The notes beneath the pieces were generated by a model. The model was not told the DNA's origin, did not search any database, and saw only the letters and a list, made by a program, of their open reading frames with translations. Source: Stereum hirsutum FP-91666 SS1 (Eukaryota; Basidiomycota; Agaricomycetes; Russulales; Stereaceae). Taken from it: a stretch of 64,000 nt of DNA. Positions 6,765 through 60,681 of this stretch are shown here, one piece after another. The DNA lies in assembly GCF_000264905.1 (NCBI RefSeq), contig NW_006763144.1, positions 1,059,648 through 1,123,647 of the forward strand, given 5' to 3'. Made by a program: the position numbers and the translations under genes. Every line of letters begins with the position of its first letter. Position 1 is the first letter of the stretch.

Positions 6765-9700
6765 TCACGCGCCTGGACCAGCACTGCCCGACATGCTCCT
6801 CCTCAGCTTCTTCCTATCCTTCTTCTTCTTCTCCTTCTCCTTCCCACCATCACTTCCCTGAACGCTCGGCACAGGTGATTCTGTCCTCACGGCATCCGTT
6901 ACACTATCGCCCCTCACGCTGCCGCCAGCAGCACTCTCGTCCTTCGACGCGTCCCTCTTCAGACCAGGGATGTTGGGGATGCTGGGGAACGAGGACGATG
7001 TCGAGCCCTGGCGCTTAGTTGAGAGCGAGATCCGCCTTGCTAGCCTCTGGAAGTTCTGCGAAGAAATCCGCTTCCGTTTGGGCTCAGATTCAGGGTCAGG
7101 CGTCCCCGTACGCCCAGCGGAGCTCACTTCGGGCGCGAACGTGATGCCAGGAGAGGACACAGGAGGGTTGGCGTTAGACGCCGATGCATCATCCGACGTC
7201 GGGAACTCAATCGGACTCGACACAACAGCGGGCTCCTCGGATGGCCCTGCGGCCGCTACGATCTGTTCGTCGTCGTCGCCACCATCAGGCGAGGACGGGA
7301 ACGCGACAGGCGAGTCCTCGGCAAGGATGGGGCCCGGTTCGTCGTGCGTGGACGGTGCGGTCACGTCGTTCGTGGGTATGTCGTCCGCGTTAGGTACGCT
7401 AACGTCGGCAGCAACGGCCTCCTCAGCAGGTGCCTCCACGGGGCCAGCCTCGGGAGCATCTTCGTCATTCGAGGTGTCCTGGGTCGGGCGTTCAGCCGCC
7501 TCTAGACCAGACGCAGTATCCGCGGGCTTGTCCTCGACCGAGTATCCTTGTACGGCCAACGGACGGACGGCAGGATCATCTGACGTCGCGATCTGATCAG
7601 CCCACATCGACGCGAAGATCCCGTCGAGCTCCAACAGCTCTTTGTGGCTGCCCTGCTCAACGATTTGACCATCTTTGAGAACAAGAATCCTAAACATAAA
7701 CAAGGTCGGTCAGTCTAACTAATCTCCCGCACCGGAAAGGAAGGAGCGGGAAGAACTGACAGGTCGGCGGTAGCAATAGTCTAGATATAGAAGAGCAATT
7801 CAGTAAAGTTGATCATTTGACAGAATGGAGAAACCAGCGTACGGAAAGCCGATGAGCGATAGAGAGCGATGAGCGGCCTTGTACGAGATTCTGGAGAGCC
7901 TTCTGGATATCCCTCTCGGTGGAGGTATCGAGAGCACTGAACCCAAACCATTAGCACAGTACTTCGGCCGATAGAGCAGTAGTGACAAACCTTGTAGCCT
8001 CGTCTAACAACAGGATAGGTGGGTTCTTCAATAGTGTACGCGCAATGGCCACACGTTGCTTCTCGCCACCACTCAACCGGATGCCACGCTCGCCAACCTT
8101 AGTCTCGTACCCATCGGGGAAACTCAGGATCCTGTCGTGCATCTGAGCAGCCTTGGCAGCCTCCTCGATCTCTTCTTGGCTAGAGCCGAACTTGCCATAC
8201 CTGTCAAACAGATACAAAGGCAGAGACAAAGTCAGTTCAAATAACACGAAGATAAGCCCCTTCGATCGCCACTGCCACCAGCGAAACAACTAGATCAAGA
8301 CATACCCGATATTATACGAAATGCTTGCGTTGAACAAGACAGAATCCTGCGGCACGACCCCGATCGCCTTCCTCAAACTCGTCTGCGTAACATCCCTGAT
8401 ATCCTGTCCATCAATAGTGATCCGGCCCTCTCCCTCCTGTAGATCATAGAACCTATAAAGGAGACGGAGGATAGTCGACTTTCCCGCGCCAGACTCGCCG
8501 ACGAGCGCGACCGAGCTGCCTTTGGGGACTTTGAACGAGACGGACTTGAGAGCGGTGCTGCGTCCGTCGTAGGAGAAGTTGACGTTGTCTGAAATGTGGC
8601 GAGTATTAGTATCGGTGGAATGCGATTATATAGGATAGATTCTAGACGTACCAAACTCGATCTCTCCGTCGCTGACAAGAAGGTCGGGTGCGTTGTCCCT
8701 GTCGTTGACCTCAGTAGGCTCGTTTAGGAGCTTCAACAGCCTCTCGGTGTCGACCAACGATCTTCACAACGTAACATCAGTAAAATAATTTGTCACATCT
8801 GATGAATAAGACTTACTGGTTGATGGAACGGTAAATGTAACCGAGGCTGTTCAGAGGACCGTACAGTTGACCGAGGTAGGTCATGAAGAACACAAAGTCG
8901 CTGGTAGAGAGCTGTCCTCTGGTGACACGCAGCGCGACGATCAAAGACCCGACCAGGAGACCGATAGTCTAAATAGGTAGCACTCGACTTAGACCCAAAT
9001 GCTGATAAATTCGGAGATGATACTCACGATGATGAAGTTTTGAACCAGGTTCAAAAGGTTCAACGAAACTACGATCAGACCAATACTCGGTTAGATTATG
9101 TCCTACACAATGAGAATTGAGTATTCGAGACTTACGCATGACACGGTACTCCAAGCTCTGGTAGTCACGGATGGCACCGGCATACCGTTCACCTTCATGC
9201 TCCTCGCCATTGAAGTACTTGACAGTCTCATAGTTCAACAAGCAATCGGTATGGATTCCGCGAGTAATCTGTTGCCGCAGAAGGCGATGAGCGTTGGTGG
9301 GTAAAGGTAGGAGTCGGGATACGTACCACGTCCTTGTCGTTCATCCTCCTCCGCAGCTTCGTACGCCACTTCGTGAGCAGTACACTTGCGGTAGCTAGTA
9401 CATCAGATGACCCAGCAGTTAGATACGCGACAAATCATGCGCGAACGTTCCGCAGGCAGATCGATACGCACCATAAGCGAACATGACCAGGAAGATGACC
9501 ACCGCGATAGTCCAATCGAGTCTAAGCGTGAAGAAGACGAGCGCAACGATGATATCGATGATGGTAGGAATGATGTTAAACATGATCAACTAAGGAGATC
9601 GAAGCCACACGTAAGTCAGCTTTGGCGAGCAATGAGTGACTTCAATGAGTGAAGCTAAACTGACCTCGAGAGTGTGGTTGATAGCGGCGCCACGATCCAA

Positions 9701-32029: not shown

Positions 32030-34250
32030 ATGTTCCAGTTCACGCGTCTCGTCTTCGTCGCTGCGACTGCTATTCATCTAGCCGGAGCGTATAACGTTCC
32101 TCGTGCTAGCCTATCGTCTTATGCGGGCGCGTCGACGTCGTTTGCATACCTTCCCAATGCTACGATCACTATTCCCGACCCAAATTACCCTTACGCGAGC
32201 GTGGTTGGCCACGCTGGGCCTACGCCGAGTAAGCGCGACCCTTCTTGTCCTCTTTGACGCGTCGCTTTGACCTGGCTGAACGCGTTGTTCTGTAGCGGGA
32301 GATGAGGCCGAGGCCATCGCGACCGCAACTGCTCTCGCAAAAGTCGACAGCATATTCCCCCTCACACGCCCAGACACGGAAGACCACAAGGGCACAACAT
32401 TCAACGTCGAACGGAGCTGGGGAAACCTCTCTCCGATGTGGTCTCTCGATGCCGGCACTTTTGGCCTCAACGAGTCTTCTGCGGTGATTCCAGAGGGTTG
32501 TTCGCTTACCCAGGCACATCTCATTCACCGACATGGCGCTCGTTATCCAACGACTGGTGCTGCTCCCGCGCAGTTCGCTGCCGCTTTACAGAATGCTACG
32601 GCCACTGTTAACGTTACCGGTCCCCTTGAGTTCTTGAGCACTTGGACTTATAAGCTTGGCGGTGAGCTCCTGACACCGTTTGGTCGCGAGGAATTGTGAG
32701 GTTGCTTGTGTCTATGCCCTGTACATATCTTGACAGATTTCTGTGGGCAATAGGTATTCTTTGGGAGTTGGGTTCAGAGTCAGATATGGCGAGTTACTGA
32801 AGGGATTTAATGACTTCCCTGTATGGAGGACTACTTCGGAAGGTATGTAGGCGCCTTACCTTTACTCGATCGCACTTTTGCTGACATTTCTTTCTCACTG
32901 GCAGCCCGCATGGTAGATTCCGCGTATGTTTATTTTATTCTCCATCTAGATGTAACTTTGTTCACAAACTGACTGCTCTCACGTCCAGTTTGCAATTTAC
33001 AGCAGGCTTTTTCGGTGTCCAGGCTTACCAGGACAGCTATCATGAAGTGATCGAGATTGAAGATACCGGCTTCAACAGTACTCTGGCTTCTTGGAATGCA
33101 TGCGACAACGCAAACAATGATGTTGCCAATTACGGATTCGATCAGGCAGATAAATGGGCTGATATCTACACGGCTCCTATCATCGAGAGACTCTCGCAGT
33201 ACATCACCGGCTTCAACTTGACCTCCTCCTACATCACCGGCATGCAAGAGACCTGTGCGTACGAGGTAAGAGCGGATATTCAACAATGGAGTTTATCTGT
33301 ATGCTGCTCTTTCTAACATCGTACACGTAGACTGTTGCCCTTGGCTACTCAAGCTTCTGCTCCGTCTTTACGGAGGAAGAGTGGAAGCAATTCGAGTACT
33401 ATTTGGGTGCGTGATCTCCGAAGGTGCACTCATCGCTCTCTCCTCTAATCTGAGTCCCTTAGACTTGCAATTCTGGTACGTCTATGGCCCGGGAAACCCT
33501 GCAGTGGCTGCCCAGGGCGTTGGTTGGCTTCAAGAGCTTGTCTCTCGCTTGACTCAAACACGTATCACCACATTTGCCACCTCGGTCAACGAGACGATCG
33601 TCTCGTCGAACGTGTGAGTTTGAGGTTATAGATTCTCAGGAAATACTGTCCTACTTACTCCTGGTTTTGCACAGTACTTTCCCTCTGTACCAGCCCATCT
33701 TTGTTGATGCCTCTCACGACACCAGTATGTCTCATCTGTATGACCACTATCGTCTGATGTTGGCTGATCGTCGTGTCCCATCAGTCATCAGCGCGATTCT
33801 CACTGCGATGAACCTGACCTACTTCTCTGCACCCGGCCCGCTTCCAACGGACCATATCCAGGATGGGCAGGTCAGCATCCCACTTTTTCGTTCATTCCGT
33901 GACCGCTCACTGCCACAATACAGACATGGATAACCCCGACCTTTTCACCCTTCGCCGCCAACATGGTCGGCCAAGTCCTCTCCTGCCCCGCCTCCGACAC
34001 CCCGACCCACATCCGTTTCGTCCTCAACGACGCCGTCGTCCCGCTCGCCGGTATCCAAGGCTGCGACACCGGCGACAAGGACGGTCTCTGTGAATTGGAC
34101 AAGTTCCTTAGTGGGCTCCAAGCACGGATCGACGAGATTGATTATCAGTTTGATTGCTTTGCGAATTACACGGTTCCGGACCCGGACACTATCACGGATG
34201 GGAGGTATCCGGACGCGTTGAAGAACTCGACGACGAGTGCGCGTAGATGA
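32030..34250 (+). CDS. secreted histidine acid phosphatase (phytase-like), copy 1
   Basis: MFQFTRLVFVAATAIHLAGA is a signal peptide. The histidine-phosphatase motif RHGARYP (in LTQAHLIHRHGARYPTTG, near residue 150) supplies the catalytic His that becomes phosphorylated. The distal HD proton-donor motif is FVDASHDT, near the C-terminal third. Other family segments are SPMWSLDAGTFGLNESS, GPLEFLSTWTYKLGGELLTP, QFTAGFFGVQAYQDSYHEVI, QETCAYETVALGYSSFC and TEEEWKQFEYYLDLQFWY. The C-terminus is DGRYPDALKNSTTSARR. It has several N-glycosylation sites and paired cysteines, about 560 residues, and about eight short introns. Substrates of the family are phosphate monoesters, including phytate; the exact one is not shown. 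A close paralog lies inverted at 39296-41519. Confidence 0.92.
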
Positions 34251-39295: not shown

Positions 39296-41519
39296 TTACT
39301 TCGCAGACGTAGAATTCTTCAACGCATCCGGGAACCTCCCATCCGTGATATCATCCGGCACCGGAACCGTATAATTCGCAAAACAATCAAACTGATAATC
39401 CACCTCCTCGATCCTCGCCTGCAGGCCACTGATGAACTTGTCGATCTCGCACAATCCGTTCTTGTCCGCCGTGCAGCCCTGGATGCCCGTGAGCGGGAGG
39501 ACGGCGTCGTTTAGGACGAAGCGGATGTGGGTCGGGGTGTCAGAGGCGGGGCAGGAGAGGACTTGGCCGACCATGTTGGAGCCGAAGGGGGAGATGTGGG
39601 GTACTATCCATGTCTGTGTAGATGGTAGAGGTTATGTGAGTAGAACACGAAACAGGAGGATCAATTAGGGGGATTAGTACTGACTTGATCATCGGGGATG
39701 TGATCAGTGGGAAGGGGGCCAGGTGCAGAGAAGATGCTGAGGTTCATAGCAGTGACAATCGCACTGATGACTGGTGACACACACTATCATCAGCTATTTA
39801 TAGCTAAGAAAGACACGAGTAAGGAGCTTACTCGTATCGTGAGTGGCATCAACAAAAATTGGCTGAGACAAGGGGAACGTGCTGAAAACAAACATATATG
39901 GGCGACAGGCATGAAGAACCACGAGGACCTCAAACACTCACACGTTGGAAGTGACGATGGTCTCGTTAACGGAGGTGTCGAATGTGGAGATTGGTGTTCG
40001 AGTCAGACGTGAAACGAGCTCTTGAACCCAACCGATACCCTGAGCGGCCACTGCTGGGTTACCGGGACCGTTTCCATACCAGAATGAGACGTCTTCAGGG
40101 GTATGATGTTAGATGGAAGCAGGGTTCAGAGTGACCCGAACGATACGCACCCAGGAAATACTCGAACTGCTTCCATTCCTCCTCCGTGAAAAGTGCACAG
40201 AAGCTCGAGAAGCCGAGGGCCACAGTCTACGAGTCCCAGTCAGCATGCACGACGCCAAAAGTCAACCGAGGTCCGTACTTCGTATGCACAAGTCTCTTGC
40301 ATTGCAATGATAGTTGAAGCCGTGAGGTTCAAGCCAGTGATGTGTTTTGACAGCCTCTCGATCGTAGGAGCCGTATATATTTCAGCCCAAGCATTGGCCT
40401 GAGTACTCCCCAGAGACGCGACGGCGTTGTTCGCATTAGTACAGACGTCGTACGGAGCTAATGTGCTGTTGAATCCCGAGGACTCTATTTCGATGAGCTG
40501 ATGATAGCTAGTCTGGTAAGACTGTACGCCGAAGAACCCTGCCGCGAACTGCAAACTATTAGATGAGGAAGGACTTTTAGCAACGGATCATGCATCATGA
40601 AGAGTTGATAACCACTCGAAATACACTCACGCTGAGTCTACCATGCGCTCTGAATGCACGAATCCAATCAGATCATGATCGGGCTTGAATAACGGATAAC
40701 TTACCCTCTGAGGTGGTACGCCACACGGGGAAGTCGTTGAACCCCTTCAACAACTCACCGTACCTGACCCTGAAACCGACACCCAAACCATACCTAAATT
40801 CACGCGTGTGAGCCAAGTCATGTACTCAGAAAGTCTACGAAGAACGTACAATTGCTCACGTCCGAAAGGGGTCAAAATCTCAGCACCAAGCTTGTACGTC
40901 CAAGTACTTAGAAACTCCAGCGGGCCCGTCACGTTCACGGTCGTGTTAGCATTATGCAACGCGGCGGCCAATTGCGCAGGAGCAGCACCAGTGGTAGGAT
41001 ACCTCGCTCCATGGCGGTGGAGGAGGTGCGCTTGAGTGAGGGAACAACCCTCTGGGATCAGAGGCGATGACTCGTTGAGACCGAAGGTACCGGCATCGAG
41101 AGAGAACATAGGAGAAAGATTGCCCCAGTAGTGTTCGACATTGAACGTCTTCCCCTTGTGGTCTTCCGTGTCTGGACGGACGAGAGGGAATGCGCTATCG
41201 ACTTTGGATAAGGCAGTCGCGGTAGCGATAGCTTCGGCCTCATCTCCCGCTACAGAACGAAATACATTACGAAGTCAGGGAGTCGGATAACAGGTATGGA
41301 AGAGAAGTGGGACAGACTGGGTGTGGGTCCGGGAAATCCCACCACACTCGCTTCAGGGAAGTTCGGGTCAGGAACGGTCACAGTGGCGTTCGGAAGAAAT
41401 GCGAACGAAGTCGTCTCTCCAGCGGAGGAAGAGAGCACGGCGCGTGGAACATTGTAAGCTGAGACTTGCACCAAGTGAAGGCTCGCGACGAGAAAGACGA
41501 GACGCGTGAACGGGAACAT
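39296..41519 (-). CDS. secreted histidine acid phosphatase (phytase-like), copy 2
   Basis: The ATG at 41519 gives signal peptide MFPFTRLVFLVASLHLVQVS A followed by YNVPRAVLSSSAG, colinear with copy 1. The catalytic motif is intact (LTQAHLLHRHGARYPTTG) and so is the HD motif (FVDATHDT). SPMFSLDAGTFGLNESS, EFLSTWTYKLGAEILTPFGR, GFFGVQSYQTSYHQLIEIES and MVGQVLSCPASDTPTHIRFV match copy 1 almost residue for residue, and intron positions agree. The C-terminus DGRFPDALKNSTSAK is two residues shorter. Both copies keep all key residues, so both are probably active secreted phosphatases. Orientation is opposite to copy 1, with GSH1 between. Substrate range and division of labour are unknown. Confidence 0.92.
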
Positions 41520-57257: not shown

Positions 57258-57336
57258 TTAAGTCGTGTTAGACAATGATCCTTCTCTCGGGGCCGGTACC
57301 ATCTCAATGTCCCTCACGCCTTCGCCATCATACACC
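57258..57336 (-). pseudogene. orphaned last exon of DUF6533 copy 1
   Basis: After an intact acceptor (TTGCCAG near 57337) the minus strand reads VYDGEGVRDIEMVPAPREG and soon stops at TAA (57258-57260). The intact copy 3 ends, after its last intron, VYDGNQRDIADIEMVPMQRE CS. So this is the original last exon of copy 1, now separated from the rest of the gene by the 1.5-kb LTR element. Confidence 0.75.
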
Positions 57337-57363
57337 TGGCAATATTCTTCAGATCCATGTAAT

Positions 57364-57368
57364 ACCTC
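57364..57368 (+). repeat. target-site duplication, left copy (ACCTC)
   Basis: The five bases directly before the 5' LTR are ACCTC and are repeated exactly at 58898-58902 after the 3' LTR. Confidence 0.9.
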
Positions 57369-57637
57369 TGTTGGATTTAGCTAGTTGCAGCTCGACGTCG
57401 CGAGAGCTTTCGCGAGCTTTCGACGGACACGGATGACTCAGCAGCGCAGCTGCTTTGCCACTCTCTCGAGTACTGTAGAATATTCGAGTATAATTTGTAC
57501 AGTAGTATAAATACATGAAGAGTTTACCTGTGTAGGGCATCGGTTTGCCCTAACACAAGCCAGCCTCACAGCTCAGTGTGATTGCAAGCCCTCTCTGATT
57601 TCTCGTGCTTTTCTCACTCGCTCACGAAAATCCAACA
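57369..57637 (+). repeat. 5' LTR
   Basis: 269 bp, TG..CA ends with short inverted termini TGTTGG/CCAACA. It contains TATAAATA at 57506-57513, so U3 runs to about 57535. A small hairpin GGGCA/TGCCC (57535-57539/57546-57550) sits at the likely U3-R border. It is identical to the 3' LTR. Confidence 0.93.
57506..57513 (+). promoter_or_regulatory. TATA box of the LTR promoter
   Basis: TATAAATA in the 5' LTR. The distance of about 30 nt places the transcription start near 57536-57540, right where the self-complementary stretch begins. Confidence 0.6.
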
Positions 57638-57646
57638 CAAACCGAT
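57638..57646 (+). promoter_or_regulatory. putative self-primer binding site
   Basis: CAAACCGAT begins at the first base after the 5' LTR, the position of a primer binding site. It does not start with TGG, so it does not fit a tRNA 3' end. Its reverse complement ATCGGTTTG lies in the LTR at 57539-57547, about 33 nt after the TATA box. This matches the known Tf1/sushi mechanism, in which the mRNA 5' end primes reverse transcription. Pairing stops after exactly nine bases on both sides. Confidence 0.6.
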
Positions 57647-57683
57647 CTCGGTACCGTCGCCGATAACCCGACGCTCGTCCATC

Positions 57684-58208
57684 ATGTCCAGCTTAACCGC
57701 TGCGACTGATCTACCGACGGATCTCCCGACGGCAGCCCCTCTCGTCGCCCCTGCGCTTTGCCTCACGCGTCGCCACTCCCTTGCACCCACTCCTGTGCGC
57801 CACACCCGCTCTACCACCCTTCCTCTTCGTCGCACATCCTCAGTCGACGCCAGCGCACGCACCCCGCCTCTGCCATCACCCTCGCGTTCTCGCGACAGTC
57901 ATCCCGACTGGAGCAGAGCGATCTGCCGCCACTGCCGAGAAGTGGGCCACATAGCCCGTGTATGTCCCTCCGCCACTCTCGTCACCTCGTCCCCGCGTAA
58001 GCCGCGTAGCGTGAACGCGCCGCCGTTACCCTCTCCATCACCTTTTTCATCCGCCGCACCTCCTCCGGCCTCTCCACCCTCCAACCCCGCGTGGCGAAAA
58101 GCCATCTGTCGTCGCTGTGGTATTACCGGCCACATCGCACGCACCTGTCCTCGTCCGAGCCCAGCTCCGAGACACCCATCGTCCGCCATTTCCGTGCTTT
58201 GTGCATAG
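57684..58208 (+). CDS. Gag-like protein with two CCHC zinc knuckles
   Basis: The ATG at 57684 is the first in the interior and opens MSSLTAATDLPTDLPTAAPL; TAG is at 58206-58208, giving 174 residues. The protein is Pro/Ser/Arg/Thr-rich with two perfect CX2CX4HX4C knuckles, CRHCREVGHIARVC and CRRCGITGHIARTC, each preceded by a tryptophan-basic segment (DWSRAI, AWRKAI). Only the nucleocapsid-like part is recognisable; a capsid helical domain is not evident. The two knuckle units are similar to each other, as after an internal duplication. It presumably binds the element RNA. A +1 frame stays open from about 58117 to 58587 past the gag stop, but I recognise no protease or other pol motif in it. 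Confidence 0.85.
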   Translation: MSSLTAATDLPTDLPTAAPLVAPALCLTRRHSLAPTPVRHTRSTTLPLRRTSSVDASARTPPLPSPSRSRDSHPDWSRAICRHCREVGHIARVCPSATLVTSSPRKPRSVNAPPLPSPSPFSSAAPPPASPPSNPAWRKAICRRCGITGHIARTCPRPSPAPRHPSSAISVLCA

Positions 58209-58210
58209 AA

Positions 58211-58225
58211 CGGGTTCGATCCCCG
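58211..58225 (+). other. tRNA T-arm / Pol III B-box look-alike
   Basis: GGTTCGATCCC (58213-58223) fits the B-box consensus, and CGGG-TTCGATC-CCCG can form a T-arm. There is no A-box or acceptor stem partner upstream, so it is not a tRNA gene. It lies just past the gag stop. Confidence 0.3.
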
Positions 58226-58619
58226 GTCCGGAATTTGACGTTGACTCTCCGCCGTCCCTTGTCGCCACATCCTCAGCCCCTATTCCGCCACTTCGCCGCC
58301 ACCCACCGTTCCTCACCATCCCTTGCCACCCACACTCCTCGCCACCTTCGCCCCGACTCTCTTTTCGGTGTCTCATCCAGGCTGTATTGGGCACGGTTTC
58401 GGATGCCGTAGCGCCAGGTGAGCCGATGCTCACGACGCCTCGACGCGCATCAACCGCTAGGATACGCCGTTCGTCATCGCGAGCAGAACGGAATTGCCAT
58501 ATGAAGGAACGCGCACATGTCCAGGGGGAGTTCCTGACGACTGCCGTAGGTTCTGACCATAGACGGGTAATTCACTGCATGTCGTAGTTGATCTCGAGGT
58601 CTTTCCCGCACGTCTCGCT

Positions 58620-58628
58620 GAGGGGGAG
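58620..58628 (+). other. polypurine tract
   Basis: GAGGGGGAG directly precedes the 3' LTR, the expected plus-strand primer site. Confidence 0.8.
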
Positions 58629-58897
58629 TGTTGGATTTAGCTAGTTGCAGCTCGACGTCGCGAGAGCTTTCGCGAGCTTTCGACGGACACGGATGACTCA
58701 GCAGCGCAGCTGCTTTGCCACTCTCTCGAGTACTGTAGAATATTCGAGTATAATTTGTACAGTAGTATAAATACATGAAGAGTTTACCTGTGTAGGGCAT
58801 CGGTTTGCCCTAACACAAGCCAGCCTCACAGCTCAGTGTGATTGCAAGCCCTCTCTGATTTCTCGTGCTTTTCTCACTCGCTCACGAAAATCCAACA
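58629..58897 (+). repeat. 3' LTR
   Basis: 269 bp, identical to 57369-57637. Confidence 0.93.
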
Positions 58898-58902
58898 ACC
58901 TC
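58898..58902 (+). repeat. target-site duplication, right copy (ACCTC)
   Basis: Exact repeat of 57364-57368. Confidence 0.9.
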
Positions 58903-58913
58903 GTAAATAAAAA

Positions 58914-60681
58914 CTAGCTGCTTATCATTGGCACGAGAGTGGTGTTACCGTCGCTGTTCTCCTGCAGGAGCACCCTCTGACTGTCTCGCAGTTCTTCACG
59001 TTCCAGTTCTACGGCGTCGTCGAACTGATTCTCCCACCAATCCGGATCGAGAGGAGCACCAATATTGCCAAGAAAGCGATTTTGAGCGAAGACTGGTCCA
59101 GCAGTGGATGTAATAGCCGCAGTGGAGGTGCCTGGGTGTGACTGGGAGTCACATGAGCGAAGGTTGAGGTAGAGGCGGTTGACCAGGAGGTTTGGTAGTC
59201 TACGTCAAGATTGAGAGAGAAAAAAGGGTCAGCCATGCACCTGCTTTGTATAGCCCAAAATATTATATATGGTGACATACACGCTGAGATAAGTTTCAAG
59301 TATAGTTAGTGCTATGTTTCCCATGTCTCCACTGGTTGACGTGGACATCTGTGTAGTACAGAAAGACGAGGAAGCTTAGCACGTTGATACACAATACTAT
59401 GTGTGAATGCACTGACATAATATAAGACCTACTATGAGCGGTCGTTCAGCGATGATCATTCTGGATATAGACCTAATGTAAAAGTCTGATCAAAAAGAAA
59501 GCTCTGAAAGGCATTATCGCCAGAAAGTACAAGGTTCCTAGTAAGATATGAGTGTGGGCGGCTGAAATAGACAAACCTGTAGGCTCACCGTCTCTAAGTA
59601 GGACTTCGGAGATGCTGCCGCCCTTTTCGACCCGACGCATCTGCATAGCATGTCGATATGTCTTACGTATCGTGATTCCAAAGACCAGTATATCGAGCGC
59701 TACGGGCAGGAAGGAAACAGTGGTATTCGCGGCTGTTATCTCTATAATTGATGAGTTTGAACATGAAGGACATAGTAACCACTACCCTGCAAGCCTACCT
59801 CTGCAAAAGTGGCACACTGAAATCAAACGGCGATGGTGTAAAATACACTGATCAATGTTTACCTTCCATTGTTCGGGGGGTTATATTCTTCGTCGCAACC
59901 TCCAAAAAACACCTCGTTCGGGGTCCCTTCCGACGAGATATTCCGTACAAGAGGAGGACTACTCATCTGCCCGAGTCGATATTGTGGCCTTTAGCCTGAA
60001 GGTGCAACAGCCTGGCAAAGAGAACAGACCCAAATGTCTATTCCAGATCTTGTGAGGGCCATCACCATTGTTATCCAGAGGACGGCTTTCGTTTGACCGC
60101 ACATGGCATAGACCCTGAGGGTGAGAAGCACTCATACCCAACACAAGAGTATTTCAGCTCAACGACAAATATTGTATATATCATCGTGACTTACTATATG
60201 TAGTGACACCTGAACATGTCCCGAAGATCAGCTGAAAGTGTGCTAGTACATTGCAACTAGGATGACTCGGACTGAGTGTAACGACTGCTTGCATTTTTAG
60301 ATCTATTAGTACCTTGTGTTCGATACAGAGCCAATGCGTCGAGTCGCCAACTTGATAATGAGGGAAGCTCCATATGCATAGCGGTTTACAAAGAAAAGAA
60401 CTGCGGGGCAAGAGAGTCTGCGCGACCATACGGCCTGGATCTCCATAGGCGCAGTCTGGATGAAGTCAAGTGCCCACAATGCTTAAGAGACAAATGCCAT
60501 GAGCATTGCAACGTAGGCTTGGAACGACTACCACGAACCGACTGAAGAGGCGGAGGCATAGTCTGCAATAAGCCTGCATAGGGGCAATGCCCTGATTAAT
60601 ATGCGGAGACGCAATAAATGACTGTACTCGCCCGAGTAAGTCCTCGAGCGCGATCCCCCGGAGTGTCCCAAACTCAGGCAT
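58914..60681 (-). CDS. DUF6533 membrane protein, copy 1 (C-terminus truncated)
   Basis: The ATG at 60681 opens MPEFGTLRGIALEDLLGRVQ. After short introns comes the DUF6533 core ALDFIQTAPMEIQAVWSRRL and AVLFFVNRYAYGASLIIKLA, then CNVLAHFQLIFGTCS and LLTLRVYAMCGQTKAVLWIT MVMALTRSGIDIW. These are the first helices of a multi-pass protein widespread in Agaricomycetes, function unknown. The cytoplasmic tail has LPNLLVNRLYLNL and NRFLGNIGAPLDPDWWENQF. The frame now ends TTLVPMISS, TAG at 58914-58916. The matching place in copy 3 is a splice donor; here its GT reads AT (58924-58925), and the LTR element sits in the same former intron. About 20 native C-terminal residues are therefore lost unless a weak GTGCCA donor six bases earlier is used. 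The membrane part looks undamaged. Confidence 0.75.

Follow-up and report, generated by a model that had tools for sequence, protein, structure and literature searches.

The window analysed here, a stretch of 64,000 nucleotides from the genome of the fungus Stereum hirsutum, contains an intact LTR element of only 1,529 bp (57369-58897, + strand) with an open frame between its two repeats. This raises the question of what so small an element has kept for its copying: a coat protein of its own, or chiefly RNA signals that serve enzymes encoded elsewhere. We consider it fairly probable that the element represents a small non-autonomous, TRIM-like LTR family of S. hirsutum, moved in trans and probably self-primed. 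It appears to have retained chiefly RNA signals for copying, and not a working coat protein.

Boundaries, copies and age of the element

The element is bounded by two direct LTRs of 269 bp (5' LTR, 57369-57637, and 3' LTR, 58629-58897, both on the + strand), identical at 269/269 bases and ending in TGTTGG...CCAACA, which enclose an interior of 991 bp. The pentanucleotide ACCTC at 57364-57368 matches exactly the one at 58898-58902, and a polypurine tract, GAGGGGGAG, abuts the 3' LTR (58620-58628, +). The hallmarks of an LTR retrotransposon, namely direct LTRs with TG..CA ends, a target duplication and a polypurine tract, are all present, and the exact boundary signals described in a first-pass annotation of this DNA (LTRs, duplication, tract and 991-bp interior) were all confirmed in the sequence. 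A second polypurine run, AGGGGGAG (58523-58530, +), precedes the 3' tract by about 98 bp; both runs recur in those ends of a related LTR family, designated family B, that could be read.

A search of the genome sequence (46.0 Mb in 38 contigs) revealed three full-length copies: the one in the window, one on contig C17 (C17:498509-500040) and one on contig C2 (C2:1199618-1201144), the latter two being 97% and 96% identical to the window copy, respectively. The element's own family, family A, also has seven solo LTRs, which are 89-99% alike. A genome search with the R motif, allowing one mismatch, found 21 LTR sites, which were sorted by their primer letters into families A (13 sites), B (6) and C (2). 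Exact 5-bp target duplications were observed at 14 of the 15 sites that could be tested (10 of family A, 3 of family B and 2 of family C, with three family-B sites excluded from the count). For family A alone the figure is 9 of 10 (three full copies and seven solo LTRs), the full copy on C17 having no exact duplication (flanks CCATG/CCAGT). The duplications mostly differ between sites, GAGGC being found at two of them. The proposal that the element is mobile is therefore borne out within its own genome, where nine of the ten places carry an exact 5-bp duplication. Given these duplications and the two further full copies, an assembly duplication was rejected; full-length matches at two other genome places rule out both chance and assembly duplication.

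Another reading is that the locus arose once, by internal deletion of a long autonomous element bearing the same LTRs, an outcome that the first-pass annotation had named as fatal to its own reading. Family-B LTRs, which are 77% like those of family A and have about 128 bp beside the 3' LTR in common with them, adjoin longer stretches; the element is thus likely to descend from a longer one, and an origin by deletion long ago is possible. However, the same interior occurs at three sites with recent LTR pairs, and no long copy carrying family-A LTRs was found in the genome sequence examined, and a one-off deletion was rejected as highly improbable. The search by LTR for a long autonomous relative, proposed in the same annotation, thus yielded the related family-B LTRs but no long copy with the element's own LTRs.

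The LTR pairs of the three full copies show 100%, 99.6% and 100% identity, as against differences of 2-4% between one copy and another, which indicates that several lineages of the mini-element moved recently. These pairs agree with the earlier description of the element as complete and recently inserted. The accompanying label 'very young' can only be given a bound: at the fungal substitution rate quoted in PMC5689174 (1.05e-9 per site per year), a single difference per 269 bases already corresponds, by our arithmetic, to about 1.8 million years.

The open frame and the non-coding interior

The interior contains an open frame of 174 codons plus stop (57684-58208, coding part 57684-58205, +), which is open in all three copies. 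The N-terminal part of the encoded protein is rich in Ser, Pro, Thr and Arg. Pfam assigned two stretches to zf-CCHC (E 8e-10), in keeping with the two CCHC knuckles claimed previously for a 174-residue protein; the first zinc knuckle is encoded at 57924-57965 and the second at 58107-58148 (both +), and all of their Cys and His residues are kept in the three copies. Six Pfam rows were obtained for this protein at E <= 1, of which only the zinc knuckle was above its cut-off. No capsid or gag domain was found by Pfam at E <= 1 in the 174-codon frame and six other frames of the element, nor was a reverse transcriptase or integrase domain found in these seven frames. Remnant pol in the six other frames was rejected on this basis, and the claim that the element has no enzymes of its own is upheld for the seven frames tested by Pfam.

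These data bear on the proposal of the first-pass annotation that the element is a true TR-GAG, in which a functional Gag packages its own RNA and a partner supplies pol. Like the plant TR-GAG elements (PMC9784723, PMC10552921), as described in the passages cited, it consists of LTRs around one frame, with no pol found by Pfam in seven interior frames. Unlike them, it has no detected capsid or gag domain, and selection on its frame was not detected. The Gag domain of a TR-GAG comprises capsid and nucleocapsid, whereas the zinc knuckle alone was found here. About 80 Ser/Pro/Thr/Arg-rich residues precede the first knuckle, which would be too little space for a capsid domain of the usual kind, and a capsid was likewise not seen in a single-sequence AlphaFold model of low confidence almost throughout (mean pLDDT 46, best near the knuckles), to be taken as weak evidence.

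The frame is variable at 30 of 525 columns across the three copies, the changes being 11 silent and 19 replacing, with no stop. Neutral simulations of the same kinds of change gave a mean of 10.3 silent changes, and 76% of the runs were free of stops, so both the silent/replacing ratio and the lack of stops fit neutrality. Pairwise replacing/silent ratios are 0.48, 0.69 and 1.02. The test has little power at 30 changes, a number that is itself inflated by several neighbouring changes clustered in the linker that separates the knuckles. The frame is about as variable as the 5' LTR (30/525 versus 12/268 columns, P 0.51), and purifying selection was undetected at this low power. A working Gag would find support in the frame staying open in every copy, in its sole indel being of 3 bp where other indels of the interior are of 1, 2 and 4 bp, in the retained Cys and His residues, and in the C17 copy being a predicted gene in public records. 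Set against the missing capsid and the neutral pattern of change, these points leave a true TR-GAG unlikely. The label 'Gag' could not be sustained for a protein in which only zinc knuckles were found, without a capsid or gag domain or a sign of purifying selection; 'knuckle-only frame' is established and 'Gag-only' is not. In the preferred TRIM-like, self-primed reading the knuckle protein is an accessory at most, and the case is a warning that zinc knuckles in an intact, LTR-flanked frame do not by themselves make it a working Gag.

Among 5.8 billion proteins, one cluster was matched (three member sequences, one contig), its listed sequence being the C17 copy. The protein of that copy is STEHIDRAFT_125050, an uncharacterised protein of Stereum hirsutum FP-91666 SS1. 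Two weak protein matches in the genome were rejected, as they sit in long frames of apparent other retrotransposons; the frame of the first continues into what we read as a DTG protease-like motif, and the second is in a common 1,528-aa frame with an RVT_2 match.

The non-coding part of the interior is less variable than the frame (Fisher P 0.0002, three copies). In the 3' interior (58209-58628, +) only 6 of 415 columns vary, a lower share than the 30 of 525 seen for the frame (Fisher P 0.0005), and this part is also less variable than the 5' LTR (Fisher P 0.025); the leader has no variable column among 46. The conservation of the 3' part could reflect recombination among copies and not function. 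Just 3' of the stop of the frame, at 58209-58240, is the stretch GGGTTCGATCCCC, unchanged in all three copies. It resembles what we take to be the T-arm/B-box of a tRNA gene, and was set aside as a curiosity: no tRNA was called there or anywhere else in the window, and no Rfam family was matched at E <= 1 in 57300-59000.

The primer site and the R-U5 fold

The predicted primer binding site (57638-57646, +) is located directly 3' of the 5' LTR. These first nine bases of the interior are a perfect reverse complement (9/9) of LTR positions 171-179, the predicted self-primer (57539-57547, +), which begins 33 bp after the start of a TATA box, TATAAATA, at LTR position 138 (57506-57513, +). Of the 16 further LTRs listed, 14 have the TATA word at a distance of 33-34 bp ahead of the primer; of the two exceptions, one has no exact TATA word and the other has an intervening insertion. 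From this distance an RNA start at LTR position 171 is predicted, and if transcription does start there, the nine bases are the first nine of the RNA. Shuffling gave an anchored match as long in 13 of 20000 cases for the LTR and in 11 of 20000 for the interior (0.06-0.07%). The complement is the same in all three full copies, and because of this invariance it has no covariation support of its own; the family-B primer differs from that of family A at two bases. A pattern search for family-B or family-C copies with a primer site of their own recovered the three known copies at zero mismatch and three matches at two mismatches, where a control pattern gave one match.

Judged from this arrangement, the element most probably primes its minus strand with a 5' piece of its own RNA, in the manner of Tf1. 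In Tf1 the RNA pairs through its first 11 bases with the primer site, and this piece, once cut off by RNase H, acts as primer (PMC7175516), and Tj1 has the same self-priming arrangement (PMC4600332). As in Tf1/sushi and Tj1, going by the passages cited, the site after the LTR complements the RNA 5' end, here a predicted one, and the predicted pairing spans 9 bases in contrast to the 11 of Tf1 (PMC7175516). Copies would spread because the RNA carries everything that the reverse transcriptase and integrase of an LTR retrotransposon need in cis. Pol II would start near LTR position 171, downstream of the TATA box, and the first nine bases of the RNA would pair with the site directly after U5. After RNase H cutting, this nine-base piece would prime minus-strand DNA, the polypurine tract would prime the plus strand, and an integrase from another element would insert the product with 5-bp duplications. 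If the element does carry its own primer, it would show what minimum of RNA signals suffices for a borrowed reverse transcriptase.

Alternatively, the mini-element may be primed by a tRNA or a tRNA half, the nine-base LTR complement being a chance match or a by-product of the R-U5 fold described below. Nine bases are short, and of 966 interior offsets one other also gives a complement of nine bases to the LTR. A copia-type element found elsewhere in this genome, as we read it, seems to have a tRNA-half-like site, the tRNA presumably being the initiator. In the 50 of 63 listed tRNA places that were read, initiator Met not being among them, no antisense match to the leader of at least 10 bases was found, which counts against conventional 3'-tRNA priming. 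A complement to all nine bases that follow the 5' LTR is absent from the 50 loci even with their flanks; one to the first eight occurs at a single locus, that of a Cys tRNA with its flanks. There is also no TGG near the end of the 5' LTR for pairing with a tRNA 3' end, and the LTR complement begins exactly at offset 0 and falls on the expected start site. Priming by a tRNA thus seems unlikely.

In the minimum-energy fold of the predicted leader (-23.4 kcal/mol) the primer is paired with its binding site and a U5 hairpin adjoins the LTR end (57597-57632, +). This fold has a z of -2.6, with 1 of 200 shuffles as good; for a longer leader the values are -2.05 and 7 of 200. A stem like the U5 hairpin is present in the folds of the family-B and family-C rows, except for a row with a damaged end. 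A 1998 paper, by its title, reportedly deals with a Tf1 leader containing a U5 stem, and the leader of the element likewise folds with one.

A second structure, the R-U5 fold (57542-57590, +), covaries among the LTR families. It was examined in an alignment of 17 of the 21 LTR sites from the primer onward, giving 10 distinct rows; the sites left out were the 3' LTR of each full copy, three in all, and a family-B copy with a damaged end. Three stacked helices (primer bases 4-10/46-52, 16-19/39-42 and 24-26/33-35) carry CTCAC in the apical loop. Bases are paired in 98.6% of cells, a value reached by none of 500 shuffles, and changes on both sides occur at 7 of 14 pairs across the three families, again matched by 0 of 500. 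Slid controls gave at most 2 such pairs, a comparison biased towards the fold, as it was first spotted in single-sequence folds of the same rows. One of five covariation measures, further pair types, was not above shuffles (266 of 500 as high), and one pair is broken in two distinct rows. The rows derive from three LTR families and hence represent fewer independent events than cells. Unaided, RNAalifold returned nearly the same fold, with two outer pairs shifted by one and 7 compensatory pairs. When sequences were folded singly, the full three-helix fold was optimal in the family-C rows and B_32 only; family-A LTRs preferred shifted inner helices, and most family-B rows a shorter outer helix.

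Helix 1 takes in primer bases 4-9. Since these same bases are needed for pairing with the primer site, the R-U5 fold and the primer-site pairing are mutually exclusive. In family A the computed energies of the two pairings, -20.5 and -23.4 kcal/mol, are 3 kcal/mol apart. The natural reading would be that the primer is held in the R-U5 fold and then released: the fold would hold the last six bases of the primer until these pair with the primer site, and it may act as a packaging or timing signal. In this respect the covarying fold offers a testable model for the holding and releasing of a self-primer. A more far-reaching suggestion, tentative and in our view improbable as a whole, is that the leader is a two-state RNA switch in which the 3' two thirds of the self-primer are held and then released, with the knuckle protein as the chaperone that throws the switch. 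Were this true, a minimal retroelement would amount to primer RNA, a polypurine tract and a nucleocapsid-like chaperone, living as a parasite of a self-primed helper.

Relation to known elements and candidate helpers

TRIM elements are small, have two LTRs with TG..CA ends and a polypurine tract, encode no enzymes and are moved in trans. The element resembles them in its size, its LTR ends, its tract and the absence of detected enzymes, and its movement would likewise be in trans. It differs in the longer interior of 991 bp with an open frame, TRIMs being called non-coding in the descriptions at hand, and in having a predicted self-primer in place of a tRNA site. TRIM and LARD elements have already been tallied in fungi (PMC5689174), so, as far as that tally is described in the passage cited, the element's kind is already known. 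Neither a fungal TR-GAG nor a self-primed miniature element was found among the literature matches listed, and, as far as these matches go, a knuckle-bearing form with a probable self-primer and a covarying leader is new. For a bivalve TRIM, the authors could propose no clear initiation mechanism in the passage cited (PMC6934838).

Among the self-priming elements, Tf1 and Tj1 are, in the passages cited, full gag-pol Ty3/gypsy elements, while the element studied here lacks pol; like Tj1, it has a 5-bp duplication (PMC4600332). Self-priming has also been predicted for the TAR lineage of Ty1/copia, including Houba and Osr-1 (PMC6317226), as it is here, although the TAR elements as described there are full-length copia elements of plants. 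Since the prediction extends to this copia lineage, self-priming alone does not assign the element to a superfamily. In the fungal GalEa copia elements a Conserved Hairpin Site substitutes for the primer site, and the authors found no complement in U5 in the passage cited (PMC5445492). The element shares with GalEa, as described there, its fungal host, LTR ends of TGT..CA, 5-bp duplications and an unusual, in our case predicted, initiation; in GalEa, however, the hairpin lies after the LTR, whereas the complement described here lies inside it.

The helper proteins would come in trans from another element. If the element is self-primed, the helper would be expected to recognise a leader of this type, and fewer elements would then come into question as its partner. 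The genome contains at least 13 RVT_2 matches of the copia type and at least 18 Integrase_H2C2 matches of the gypsy type; among those listed, none was tied to the element's LTRs by the junction of tract and LTR. This junction, AGGGGGAGTGTTGG, occurs seven times in the genome searched, three times each in families A and B and once in a gene-like stretch on contig C3, which was for that reason rejected as an element end.

Several observations were made on other LTR sequences of this genome. The copia-type element at L041 (contig C5) has GGTTATGGGCCCTG after ...CAACA, a putative LTR end. We take this stretch to resemble the complement of the anticodon arm of initiator Met tRNA, which is unlike the arrangement in the element studied. 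At L036:2602-2870, a solo LTR of family C contains a MITE-like insertion of 269 bp with 14-bp perfect inverted ends, situated between the TATA box and the R motif. Two 3' ends of family B, in opposite orientation, are flanked by a 312-bp direct repeat (L029:4134-4445 and 8877-9188), 99.7% identical, which points to a rearrangement or an unusual insertion. In the window itself, an inverted pair of 2.2 kb (32030-34232 and 39308-41519), 70% identical, perhaps represents diverged duplicate genes.
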